The notes below the pieces were generated by a model. That model worked only from the letters and a program-made list of their open reading frames with translations, was not told where the DNA came from and searched no databases. DNA of 64,000 nt from Adhaeribacter rhizoryzae (GTDB lineage: Bacteria > Bacteroidota > Bacteroidia > Cytophagales > Hymenobacteraceae): positions 186,001 to 250,000 of the forward strand of contig NZ_VWSF01000002.1 in NCBI RefSeq assembly GCF_008629685.1. Direction: 5' to 3'. Both the position numbers and the translations under genes were made by a program. Shown one piece after another: positions 22,490 to 40,920 of the stretch (within the stretch, counting starts at the first letter, position 1; every line of letters starts with the position of its first letter).

Positions 22490-22543
22490 GCGCGGAAGTT
22501 ACTTCCGTGCTCAATTTGAAAGGCACGGAAGTAACTTCCGCGC
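22490..22543. repeat. Nested palindrome (family D)
   Basis: Two perfect 20-bp inverted arms (22490-22509 and 22524-22543) are separated by 14 bases. Each arm is itself a near-palindrome, GGAAGTTACTTCC. A hairpin of this kind is typical of REP-like or MITE elements. It lies in the convergent gap between rho and the UbiA gene, next to the family A element; an apparent 104-codon frame across both is only a by-product of the palindromes. Confidence 0.65.
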
Positions 22544-22587
22544 CATAGTGAAAACTTTAATATTAAAGGTTTAAGTATCCCATACAT

Positions 22588-22642
22588 GTCATTCAGGAGG
22601 AAACTATTTGGCTCCTTGCTAAATAGTTTCCTCCTGAATGAC
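22588..22642. repeat. Palindromic element, family A, copy 1
   Basis: Perfect 22-bp inverted arms, beginning GTCATTCAGGAGG and ending CCTCCTGAATGAC, enclose an 11-base loop. Related copies occur near 27965, 42189 and 54091. It lies between the convergent rho and UbiA genes. Confidence 0.75.
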
Positions 22643-22750: not shown

Positions 22751-23605
22751 CTAAAATATTATCATCAGCATAAAAGCCAGGCTGATGGAAAGCGAGGAGA
22801 TTTTATTCATCAGCATGGTATTTTCGAAATTAGCCTCAGCCCGGTTTTGTCTTACGCGCCAGAACCATCGGTTAAAGAAAAAAACAACCGGACCGGTACA
22901 AAGCAAAAATATAAGAATATTAATCTCCTGGTGGGTGTTTAAATAAGCGAAAATTAATAAGCCGGTACCCAGCAATAAACTAATGCCGGAAAACAAAAAA
23001 GTGCCTTGTATGCCTAATAATAAACTGATTGTTTTATCGCCCCGGCGGGCATCTTCGGTGTGCTGGTAAACCTGGGTAAGCGGGTAAGAGCCACATAAAA
23101 ATAAAGAGCTAACAGTCGCAAATATTAAATTAGTAGAACTGGTAATTTGTGCCACATTAACGCCAATGCCCAACTGCACCATTAAAAAAGTAAAAGCGCC
23201 CTGAAAGAATATTACTACCAGCGTGCTGATGAAAGGATATTTTTTTAAGCGAATTTTATCGTAACTATAAGCTTTGGAAACCAGCAGGTAAACTGTAATG
23301 CAAACAGCAAAAGGCACCGAAATAAACAAAGCTCCCAGAATAGCCAATCCATCGAACAACGAAACCAGCCAGAAAAGGCTTTTATTAACCTTGGGTGGGT
23401 GTTTTAGGCCGCCAATGCTGCTTTCATCGCGATCGAAGTAACAGTTGTAACCGTTGCTGGCCGGGTACACGAATAAGTGAATAATTACAAAAACCGCTAC
23501 TGCTTTTGCTACCGAGTAATCCGTAACCACGCTCAAAGCAAACCAGAATACCGGCATCAGGTACACCGAAAAGGGTATTCGCATTAATTTTAGCGCATCA
23601 CGCAT
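22751..23605 (-). CDS. UbiA family prenyltransferase
   Basis: An integral membrane enzyme that transfers a polyprenyl group to an aromatic or other acceptor. The 284-residue protein has about eight hydrophobic segments. The two Asp-rich prenyl-diphosphate/Mg motifs are present: NCYFDRD at 54-60 (NxxxDxD form) and HTEDARRGDKT near 185. Length is typical for UbiA/MenA relatives. A methyltransferase on the same strand (24521-25303) would be a natural partner, as prenylation and methylation often act in series, but a small foreign-looking two-gene island now lies between them. Acceptor unknown; ubiquinone-type, menaquinone-type and natural-product roles all remain possible. Confidence 0.88.
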   Translation of the reverse strand: MRDALKLMRIPFSVYLMPVFWFALSVVTDYSVAKAVAVFVIIHLFVYPASNGYNCYFDRDESSIGGLKHPPKVNKSLFWLVSLFDGLAILGALFISVPFAVCITVYLLVSKAYSYDKIRLKKYPFISTLVVIFFQGAFTFLMVQLGIGVNVAQITSSTNLIFATVSSLFLCGSYPLTQVYQHTEDARRGDKTISLLLGIQGTFLFSGISLLLGTGLLIFAYLNTHQEINILIFLLCTGPVVFFFNRWFWRVRQNRAEANFENTMLMNKISSLSISLAFMLMIIF

Positions 23606-23608
23606 ATA

Positions 23609-23645
23609 CAGTAAACAGTTATCAGTTATCAGTAAACAGTTATCA
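23609..23645 (-). repeat. Heptad repeat array, left copy
   Basis: On the minus strand this reads as alternating CTGATAA and CTGTTTA heptads, the same unit as the array at 24429-24524 but in the opposite orientation. It begins just before the ATG of the UbiA gene and forms the left border of the two-gene island. Confidence 0.7.
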
Positions 23646-23829
23646 ATATTAGCGATTTTTAAAATAATGTGGGATGAAGAAGCTTTAAAGCTTTCATCAG
23701 TTTGAATTTTCAGGCAGCATAAATTCCTCTAATCAGAGCCAAGTAAGTACTACAACTTATTGTTAGCTGATAATCAATTACTTATAATAGGACGCTGCTC
23801 TGGCAGATATTAATGCGCTTTAGCTTGGG

Positions 23830-24096
23830 TTAAGCATTTGTTTTTCTTTTTAATACTTCAATTGCGTCAAATTCAACATGCTTATTTAGTCTTATGTTTA
23901 GTTCTTCTTCACACTGTTTAGATGCTAACTCATTATTCACCAACGCTAAATCTTGTAAAATGCTCACAATTAATTCCCATTCTCCTTTCTGGAAGTATTC
24001 TTTTTCATGACTTGTGCTACAACGGGCGAACCCATCATCGTCACCAAGGTACTTATCAAATATTCTAACATGTTCTTTGGTTATCAATTGCATCAT
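23830..24096 (-). CDS. Small hypothetical protein (island gene 2)
   Basis: Unrecognised. I start at the ATG at 24096 (88 residues) because it overlaps the stop codon of the preceding gene as ATGA, the usual sign of translational coupling; an ATG 11 codons upstream is possible. The product is acidic in its N-terminal part (FDKYLGDDDGF) and helical in the rest (EWELIVSILQDLALVNNELASKQ). It has no signal peptide. Its DNA is visibly more AT-rich than the flanking genes. Size, pairing and composition would fit an immunity- or antitoxin-like protein, but that is inference only. Confidence 0.65.
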   Translation of the reverse strand: MMQLITKEHVRIFDKYLGDDDGFARCSTSHEKEYFQKGEWELIVSILQDLALVNNELASKQCEEELNIRLNKHVEFDAIEVLKRKTNA

Positions 24097-24386
24097 ATTT
24101 GATTTAATTGACTTTCTGTAGTAAAACAATCAAAGCAAACAAACACATGGATCGCACAGCAATCAGCTAAATCATACTTGTCCCCAATAGAATCAATTTG
24201 TGCATAGAAAGTCATTCTTTCACCACAATCTTTACAGTTTGGATAATCTTCTATATTCAATCCGTCTGGTTTCCCGCCAAGCTTATGGCGTGTTCCAGCC
24301 TCATCATTCCATTGATAACCGACGGCCTTCTTTGCTTCTTCAGTGTCTGGATTTGTTTTTAATTTAATTTCTGGAATTTCTTTCAT
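24093..24386 (-). CDS. Small putative zinc-ribbon protein (island gene 1)
   Basis: A 97-residue soluble protein with paired cysteines: CKDCGERM near 51-58 and CFDCF near 84-88, plus a CC at about 76. The order HKLGGKPDGL, then the CxxCG...MTFYAQIDS segment, then VFVCFDCF, resembles the C-terminal part of DUF1963/YwqG-like proteins as I remember them; this is tentative. The stop codon overlaps the ATG of the next gene. Both genes are AT-rich, differ in codon use from their neighbours, and are bracketed by inverted heptad-repeat arrays, which suggests they arrived together. Confidence 0.68.
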   Translation of the reverse strand: MKEIPEIKLKTNPDTEEAKKAVGYQWNDEAGTRHKLGGKPDGLNIEDYPNCKDCGERMTFYAQIDSIGDKYDLADCCAIHVFVCFDCFTTESQLNQI

Positions 24387-24428
24387 AACTCACAATTGAG
24401 CGTAACTAATAACTGTTTACTGCTGATT

Positions 24429-24524
24429 GTTAACTGATAACTGATAACTGTTTACTGATAACTGTTTACTGATAACTGTTTACTGATAACTGTTTTCTGA
24501 TAACTAATTACTAATAACTGTTAA
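24429..24524. repeat. Heptad repeat array, right copy
   Basis: Six 14-bp units in tandem from 24441 to 24524; the first three are exact CTGATAACTGTTTA, and the last ones degenerate. Each unit is two heptads, CTGATAA and CTGTTTA. The array includes the stop codon of the methyltransferase gene at 24521-24523. The same unit occurs inverted at 23609-23645. There are no unique spacers, so it is not a CRISPR. Confidence 0.85.
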
Positions 24525-25303
24525 ACAGGATATCCTATGAGGTAAATAATTTTGAGGCCGGATTTGTGTTTCAACTTGCCGGTTTGCCAGGTATAATTAT
24601 TGGCCGGTATACTGGCGGTAAGTTGCTGTAGGTGCTGCGGGGTATATAGCCGCAAAATAGATACGCAGCCGTCCCAGAGGGTACAAATTGGAATAAGCGG
24701 CACTAAGTACGTAAAAAATAAACGGCTCCACCGGAACGGGCGCATAAACGGAGTAATAAAAAAAAATATTACTGGAAAAAACAGCAGCGCGGCAATAATT
24801 TCGAGGTAACTTTTGCCGGCACCTTCAAAAATGCCAATGGGTACACGCTTTTGGGCAGCATCGGTTAAAATGGAACGTGCTACAGTTGGGTTAAAATGGT
24901 GAAAAGCGGAAAAAATAGTACGGCAACCGGTTAACTCCTCCGGCACATTGGTCGCATCGACGGGCTGCGCAATAAAATTAATGGTACCACCAGATTCTTT
25001 TTCTATTAATTCAAAAGCCGGAATATTCGGGAATTTATCGCTTAAGGTAATATTAACCGGCTGTTGCAGGTGGTTGGCCAGCAGTTGTTGTATGCCTTGT
25101 ATGCCGCCACCACCACCCGAACACAAATCTAAAATGCTGGGCTGCTTACTTTTATGGAATAACTCAGCTAATAAAGGTACAACAGGTTCGTAAACTCCCA
25201 GTTTGCTGATGGAGAACCGTAAAAAATCCATCATGTTTTGCCGCAGAAAGTCCGGAAACCAAGGCTGATCTTCAAATTCAAATAAATGGTATCGTTTCGT
25301 CAC
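24521..25303 (-). CDS. Class I SAM-dependent methyltransferase
   Basis: 260 residues with the SAM-binding motif ILDLCSGGGGGIQGIQ near 57-72 and an acidic strand LSDKFPNIPAFELI after it. A hydrophobic segment near 175-200 (LLFFPVIFFFITPF) suggests contact with the membrane, which suits a lipid-like substrate. It is on the same strand as UbiA and probably belonged to the same transcription unit before the island between them. The stop codon lies inside the heptad repeat array, so the last codons may have been altered by the repeat. Substrate unknown. Confidence 0.8.
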   Translation of the reverse strand: MTKRYHLFEFEDQPWFPDFLRQNMMDFLRFSISKLGVYEPVVPLLAELFHKSKQPSILDLCSGGGGGIQGIQQLLANHLQQPVNITLSDKFPNIPAFELIEKESGGTINFIAQPVDATNVPEELTGCRTIFSAFHHFNPTVARSILTDAAQKRVPIGIFEGAGKSYLEIIAALLFFPVIFFFITPFMRPFRWSRLFFTYLVPLIPICTLWDGCVSILRLYTPQHLQQLTASIPANNYTWQTGKLKHKSGLKIIYLIGYPV

Positions 25304-40018: not shown

Positions 40019-40068
40019 TCGTTTTAGCCGGTAACTATTAGCTACAAGCAATTTTTCAAGTGAGTTTT

Positions 40069-40103
40069 AACAATCAACCATCAACAATTAACAATTAACA
40101 ATT
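40069..40103. repeat. Heptad repeat array at the panB stop codon
   Basis: Consecutive heptads AACAATC, AACCATC and three AACAATT end inside the panB stop codon (40102-40104). The period and the position at a stop codon match the array at 24429-24524. Confidence 0.75.
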
Positions 40104-40920
40104 AATAAGCCTCTTCGTCGGTTGGGAAATCTTTGGTTTTTACGTCGTGCACGTAGTTGGTAACAGCGTTGGTCATTATTTCATGCAGGTCGGCGTAGCG
40201 GCGCAGAAACCGGGGCTTAAATTCTTTGGTAATACCTAATAAATCATGGGTTACCAGTACCTGGCCATCAACGTAAGGGCCGGCACCAATGCCAATTATT
40301 GGAATTTGCAACGAAGAAGCTACTTTCTGAGCCAAAGCCGACGGTATTTTTTCGAGTACAATAGAAAAGCAACCTATTTCCTGCAGCAACATGGCATCTT
40401 CTACCAATTTATTTGCTTCCTGCTCTTCTTTGGCCCGCACCGTATAGGTGCCAAATTTATAGATCGATTGCGGCGTTAAACCCAAATGGCCCATTACCGG
40501 CACACCGGCACTTAATATTCTAATAACCGATTCTTTTATTTCGCTGCCGCCTTCCATCTTAACGCCGTGCGCACCCGATTCTTTCATTATCCGGATGGCT
40601 GAACGTAAGGCTTCAGAAGAATTACCCTGGTAAGAGCCAAAAGGCAAATCTACTACCACAAAGGCCCGTTTTACCGCCCGCACCACCGAAGAAGCATGGT
40701 AAATCATTTGGTCCAGGGTAATGGGCAGGGTGGTTTCGTGGCCGGCCATTACGTTAGACGCCGAATCGCCCACCAATAACACATCTACACCGGCCCCGTC
40801 CAGAATAGCGGCCATGGAATAATCGTAAGCCGTGAGCATCGATATTTTTTCGCCCCGCTCTTTCATGGCTTGCAATTGGTGGGTGGTAATAATTTTGATG
40901 TCCCGTTTTTGTACAGACAT
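40102..40920 (-). CDS. panB: 3-methyl-2-oxobutanoate hydroxymethyltransferase
   Basis: First step of pantothenate (and hence CoA) synthesis: transfers a hydroxymethyl group from 5,10-methylene-tetrahydrofolate to 2-oxoisovalerate. 272 residues, typical. Diagnostic segments: [26 protein letters not shown] near 28-53 with metal ligand Asp, [10 protein letters not shown] near 90-99, GVKMEGG near 119-125 and [12 protein letters not shown] near 141-152. The acceptor pathway gene panC is not in the window. A terminator-like hairpin 118 bases upstream of the start may form part of its leader. Confidence 0.97.

Follow-up and report, generated by a model that had tools for sequence, protein, structure and literature searches.

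Tandem heptamers of the TAACTGA type were described by MacGregor in 2015 from Beggiatoaceae, Cyanobacteria and five Bacteroidetes (PMC4679880). In Beggiatoaceae they are found mostly just upstream of start codons; a function in translational regulation and, in some genomes, a role in rearrangement were proposed for them, and one reverse set, positioned behind a stop codon, was recorded in Flexibacter litoralis (PMC4679880). On the protein side, a GGxP motif, a conserved Q and, in a subset, paired CxxC motifs define the TYPP proteins, among them YwqG/DUF1963, PDCD2 and TSR4 (PMC4275035), and the SitA6 toxins have been described as AHH nucleases (PMC8546572).

The locus considered here lies in a 64,000-nucleotide stretch of the Adhaeribacter rhizoryzae genome (the stretch is referred to as the window, the genome as G000, and its two closest relatives as G001 and G007). 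We judge it rather probable that the locus consists of inherited arrays at gene edges, into the right one of which a horizontally acquired cassette was later inserted, and that the cassette-encoded protein P1 is an orphan immunity protein directed against a nuclease of the SitA6/DUF2380 kind.

Organization of the locus

The features of the locus, in window coordinates, are as follows.

22751 to 23605, minus strand: UbiA-family prenyltransferase gene (Pfam UbiA, E 7.7e-18)
23607 to 23648, minus strand: heptamer array on the left (6 AACTGNT units), which reads into UbiA at its start
23649 to 23750, no strand assigned: native spacer (GGGATGAAGAAGCTT block), common to the cargo-free relative G001
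23751 to 23785, plus strand: degenerate array of heptamers that was probably once the inner part of the right array and has been displaced
23786 to 24403, minus strand: acquired cassette, limits approximate (absence from congeners; Adhaeribacter terrigena copy elsewhere)
23830 to 24096, minus strand: P2, 88 amino acids, acidic, predicted helical, outside known families
24093 to 24386, minus strand: P1, 97 amino acids, one-repeat DUF1963/TYPP-like, two CxxC motifs, probable immunity protein
24404 to 24522, plus strand: heptamer array on the right (17 AACTGNT units), which reads into the methyltransferase-like gene at its stop
24521 to 25303, minus strand: methyltransferase-like gene, its stop overlapping the right array

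All four genes are located on one strand, and P1 and P2 overlap by ATGA. A Pfam search with the methyltransferase-like gene (24521-25303) gave zero matches, so that its initial description as the likely methyltransferase partner of UbiA is only putative. The initial annotation had described the overlapping pair as more AT-rich than its neighbours, and this is borne out by a GC content of about 35-37% for P1/P2 as compared with about 39-45% for UbiA and about 42-45% for the methyltransferase-like gene. Promoter- and terminator-like sites occur at the locus above the level of shuffled sequences, as consensus matches only, and an Rfam search of the locus produced zero matches. Two further structures are present in the spacer between rho and UbiA: an inverted repeat at 22490-22547 (GCGGAAGTTACTTCC / GGAAGTAACTTCCGC), and a hairpin repeat with AGGAGGAAACTATTT arms at 22590-22641, a copy of which is also present in the spacer of the array-bearing locus L053 (about 1555-1620), so that it looks like a dispersed hairpin family.

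Heptamer arrays at the edges of the flanking genes

Tandem Repeats Finder detects arrays of period 7/14 at 23608-23645 and 24410-24524. Their TAACTGA-type units form intergenic tandem direct repeats that include close variants, as is characteristic of the known TAACTGA repeats, and, again as in these, the left array, in forward orientation, ends only a few nucleotides ahead of a start codon. The two arrays pair as inverted repeats that are mostly 81-89% complementary over 37-43 nt and stand about 800 nt apart; the initial description of one heptamer unit in opposite orientation on both sides of the gene pair thus holds for the arrays at 23607-23648 and 24404-24522. The UbiA start codon is 1 nt away from the left array, and the stop codon of the methyltransferase-like gene falls inside the right one. 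Since one array is located at the UbiA start and the other covers the stop of the methyltransferase-like gene, the arrays belong to the edges of the flanking genes. The UbiA start position is the same in congeners that possess arrays and in those that do not.

A third array, plus-oriented and degenerate, is present at 23751-23785 and had been overlooked in the initial annotation. None of 2000 Markov-simulated sequences attained its best four-unit score, and 0.05% of them attained its five-unit score. This segment aligns with the start of the right array of G001, while the spacer beside the left array can be aligned with that of G001 until about 23750. Taken alone, the homology just before the 23751-23785 stub is weak (p 0.09), and the left breakpoint is therefore only approximate. 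This arrangement suggests that the cargo was inserted inside the right array and left the stub behind; on another reading, the stub could be drifted spacer DNA.

Arrays read into the gene that they abut

With at most one mismatch allowed, the three-unit pattern occurs at 119 places in the genome, as compared with 0 for a reversed-pattern control, which shows that the unit does not occur by chance in G000. We examined array loci from six genomes, with open reading frames as neighbours; an array was regarded as abutting when it lay between -25 and +15 nt from a gene edge, and all gene edges other than those at the UbiA junction were taken from open reading frames alone. In a sample drawn from strong pattern matches, in which weak arrays are consequently under-represented, 72 of 91 arrays abut the gene into which they read (17/20 in G000, 7/8 in G001, 31/43 in G006, which uses another unit, 3/4 in G078, 10/12 in G025 and 4/4 in G140), versus 1 of 90 for the gene on the other side. 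When arrays were placed randomly in the spacers of the window and passed through the same pipeline, 7.9% and 6.9% abutted a gene, which rules out a bias in open reading frame calling as the cause of the abutment.

This polarity rule is valid at starts and at stops, and at convergent, divergent and co-directional junctions alike; among the abutting arrays of G000, 13 are found at stops and 4 at starts. In G000, the left and right arrays of a single locus are more similar to each other than to the arrays of other loci (p 0.002-0.006). The same likeness is absent from G006 and G025, and local templating was for this reason not adopted as an explanation. Two additional arrays of G000 deserve mention: an AACAATT-type heptamer array at window positions 40067-40105, which seemingly abuts the gene at its right and which, with its different unit, would fit the polarity rule, and a 25-unit array behind a gene end (L043, 1376-1550) in which CTG- and TTG-type units are mixed.

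The heptamer unit differs between clades

Exact three-unit matches to AACTGNT number 48 in G000, 13 in G001 and 0-1 in each of G002 to G007. AACYTGN arrays have 22-102 matches in G002, G003, G005 and G006, and zero in G000, G001, G004 and G007. At the UbiA junction itself, the AACTGNT unit is present in G000, G001 and G007 and the AACYTGN unit in G003 and G006, in an equally inverted layout. Five of the seven array loci of G001 are orthologous to array loci of G000, which argues that the arrays are inherited in place. If the heptamer is set for each clade and exchanged throughout the genome, sister clades would be expected to differ in their unit at the same junctions, and such an exchange would imply that the repeats are written or homogenised by a machinery acting in trans. 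Only tentatively do we draw from this a heptamer system that would operate at the DNA level in Hymenobacteraceae-like genomes, occupying both edges of a spacer with a fixed polarity into the genes, whatever their direction, exchanging a clade-set unit genome-wide, and providing landing sites for acquired genes; this comprehensive picture is less likely than not. Within the open-licence literature, we found no paper that reports a two-edge polarity rule or an exchange of units at conserved junctions, which is weak evidence.

Acquisition of the P1/P2 cassette

In all seven congeners searched, UbiA directly neighbours the methyltransferase-like gene, and P1/P2 are absent; the spacers in these cargo-free congeners are about 95 to 230 nt long. 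A. terrigena carries the P1/P2 pair at another locus (P1 88% and P2 64% identical), flanked by genes that we name, from their sequences, as CPBP-like membrane protease and queA-like genes, and a search for a heptamer array beside this copy found none. The absence of the island from the seven congeners, together with the presence of the pair at an unrelated site in A. terrigena, supports the acquisition of P1/P2, and the earlier proposal of an acquired cassette is to this extent upheld.

The further proposal that the arrays bracket the cassette does not stand. In G001 and G007, inverted TAACTG-type arrays are located on the same two gene edges, free of cargo, whereas arrays are missing beside the A. 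terrigena copy; from their presence at the same edges in cargo-free relatives, the arrays appear to be older than the cargo. Repeats of this kind are found near many genes that have no cargo, an outcome that the initial annotation had named as refuting and that speaks against its reading of the repeats, while the island is far from being constantly present in relatives, which speaks for its acquisition. In searches with tblastn, neither P1 nor P2 matched a plasmid, and P1 matched no phage; PADLOC gave zero matches for P1/P2, and the PHROG collection yielded for the pair a single weak match, to a family with no assigned function.

Properties of the P1 and P2 proteins

In the P1 family (18 homologs), the GGxP motif and a Q are invariant (G37, G38, P40, Q63 in P1), and two CxxC motifs (C51-C54 and C84-C87 in P1) are present in nearly all members. 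A DUF1963 match is found in 14 of the 18 members and is weak, the best E value being 8.9e-6; P1 itself scores 13.5 bits against Pfam DUF1963, below the curated cut-off of 23. With 97 amino acids, one GGxP motif and one conserved Q, P1 is devoid of the two tandem all-beta repeats of the TYPP proteins, and since it has one repeat where these have two, we file it as a relative and not as a member: judged from its sequence, P1 belongs near DUF1963/TYPP, as a one-repeat relative that probably binds zinc. Foldseek returned no significant match for P1 or P2, and a search of solved structures with the P1 sequence returned nothing. In a second structural comparison, the top row for P1 was YwqG (1PV5; Z 3.8, 63 residues, rmsd 3.0), a weak match that was tied with zinc-ribbon proteins.

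The distribution of P1 homologs is scattered (Pontibacter, Flavobacterium, Marinoscillum, Proteobacteria and Lentisphaerae), and the protein is rare, with one weak extra match among 395 genomes of its class. P2 (88 amino acids, acidic, predicted helical) has homologs within the Bacteroidota only in A. terrigena; its sole further match is weak and holds an internal stop.

P1 homologs in the vicinity of toxins

In two cases, a P1 homolog begins closely behind a toxin C-terminus of the DUF2380/TIGR02269 (SitA6) family, at distances of 14 and 8 nt. One of the two C-termini is carried on an RHS protein; these C-termini score over the Pfam DUF2380 cut-off and under the NCBIfam TIGR02269 cut-off. They are also the only copies of DUF2380 found in the 17 P1-bearing genomes, and those of the genomes that belong to the Bacteroidota yielded no DUF2380 toxin. 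P1 homologs thus stand behind DUF2380 in 2 of 17 cases; most are orphans, and the window copy, like most homologs, is not located directly downstream of a toxin C-terminal domain. On a Marinoscillum contig (L080, 984-1582 and 2616-4098), a P1 homolog directly follows barstar, and a tandemly duplicated MORN-repeat gene is present on the same contig, which may be an immunity gene island. In a Casimicrobiaceae metagenome-assembled genome (L091, 3437-4225), a P1-like domain is fused in frame behind what seems to be an RHS-type toxin tail, with RHS-like sequence nearby.

An identity of P1 with the immunity protein SitI6 was considered and rejected: PF09535 is unmatched across the P1 family, and a comparison of the SitI6 of plasmid pMF1 with the alignment of the P1 family gave a probability of 0.6%. 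Because pMF1 SitI6 stems from a different family, P1 would represent a further solution against toxins of this kind. Two homologs at SitA6/DUF2380 and one at barstar make an orphan immunity role plausible, and on these sequence grounds P1 is regarded as a plausible, unproven orphan immunity protein. The initial suggestion of an immunity- or antitoxin-like pair therefore retains plausibility in its P1 part, on account of the homologs beside toxins.

The main competitor to this assignment, to which we accord a sizeable although lesser share of the probability, regards P1 as a small TYPP-like protein-interaction or chaperone domain whose role is unrelated to immunity. Burroughs and Aravind proposed a chaperone-like role for TYPP (PMC4275035), and P1 homologs are mostly orphans away from toxins, which leaves room for a housekeeping or chaperone role of this kind; the very patchy, phylum-crossing distribution of P1 and the existence of copies adjacent to toxins and to barstar argue against it.

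Explanations for the arrays and for the locus

Several other explanations account for parts of the array data. The inverted arrays flank cargo, and a minus-then-plus layout recurs at other loci, as would be expected if P1/P2 had arrived on a mobile element with the arrays as its terminal inverted repeats; however, the cargo-free relatives G001 and G007 have arrays at the same gene edges, the orthology of five of seven G001 loci to G000 loci points to inheritance in place, the A. terrigena pair is free of arrays, and the array ends coincide with gene edges rather than with target duplications, so that this explanation is very improbable. The position of the left array next to the UbiA ATG, which matches the repeats just upstream of starts described by MacGregor in 2015 (PMC4679880), would agree with a regulated operon whose arrays are sites for a translational regulator, as was proposed for Beggiatoaceae. 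This we consider unlikely, since in six genomes the arrays are found at stops as well as at starts and at all junction types, and those on the stop side would be left unexplained. Slightly less likely still is an action in RNA, by which a long stem within a read-through transcript would loop out the spacer or the cargo and allow the operon to tolerate the insertion. The predicted fold of a 941-nt transcript pairs both arrays around P1-P2 (z-score -3.4 versus 20 shuffles), and the four genes share one strand, but convergent and divergent junctions, where a common transcript is not expected, have paired arrays too, and pairing has no need of a fixed orientation.

In the reading that we prefer, the inverted arrays would be inherited gene-edge features of the UbiA/methyltransferase-like junction and part of a genome-wide set, to which a polar process acting on DNA would add heptamers at the edges of spacers, with a reading direction that almost always leads into the adjacent gene, in whichever direction that gene itself runs. 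A two-gene cassette of about 620 bp, horizontally acquired, would later have landed in the right array and left a decayed stub on the inner side; array DNA, being repetitive, was probably a tolerated site of recombination. P1, a small TYPP-like domain with one repeat and probably with bound zinc, would most likely act by binding an incoming SitA6/DUF2380 (AHH) nuclease toxin and blocking it, and P2 may have been transferred along with P1 as an accessory and is perhaps an additional immunity protein. Of this reading, the arrays and their geometry, the acquisition, the motifs of P1 and the homologs beside toxins are shown directly, whereas the mechanism of insertion, the binding of zinc and the immunity are inferred.

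If the polarity rule applies genome-wide, the heptamers cannot be simple translation signals, because starts and stops are treated alike. The clade-specific units at conserved positions make it directly testable by what process TAACTGA-like repeats are written and homogenised in Bacteroidota, Cyanobacteria and Beggiatoaceae. In addition, P1 is a candidate for a one-repeat TYPP immunity protein acting on SitA6-like nucleases, and the locus exemplifies gene gain inside a repeat array.

Comparison with described systems

P1 resembles the orphan immunity genes of Bacteroidota in being a small, mobile, immunity-like gene that has no neighbouring toxin; unlike these, the cassette comprises neither an array of further immunity genes nor a recombinase gene. 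With the SitA6/SitI6 system of Myxococcus (PMC8546572, PMC7843461), the P1 family has in common that two of its members stand directly behind SitA6/DUF2380 C-termini, in the place of an immunity gene, whereas the SitI6 of pMF1 is a Gmx_para_CXXCG protein that is not detectably related to P1. P1 shares with TYPP/DUF1963 the GGxP motif, the invariant Q and the two CxxC motifs, and departs from them in having one repeat instead of two, a length of about 97 amino acids and a score below the Pfam cut-off. The window arrays, finally, agree with the TAACTGA repeats of MacGregor (2015) in their unit, their intergenic site, their end near a start codon and their forward orientation; they differ in abutting stops as well as starts and in occupying both edges of a spacer with one polarity into the genes, and where that survey followed a single unit, the sister clades carry AACYTGN at the same junction.
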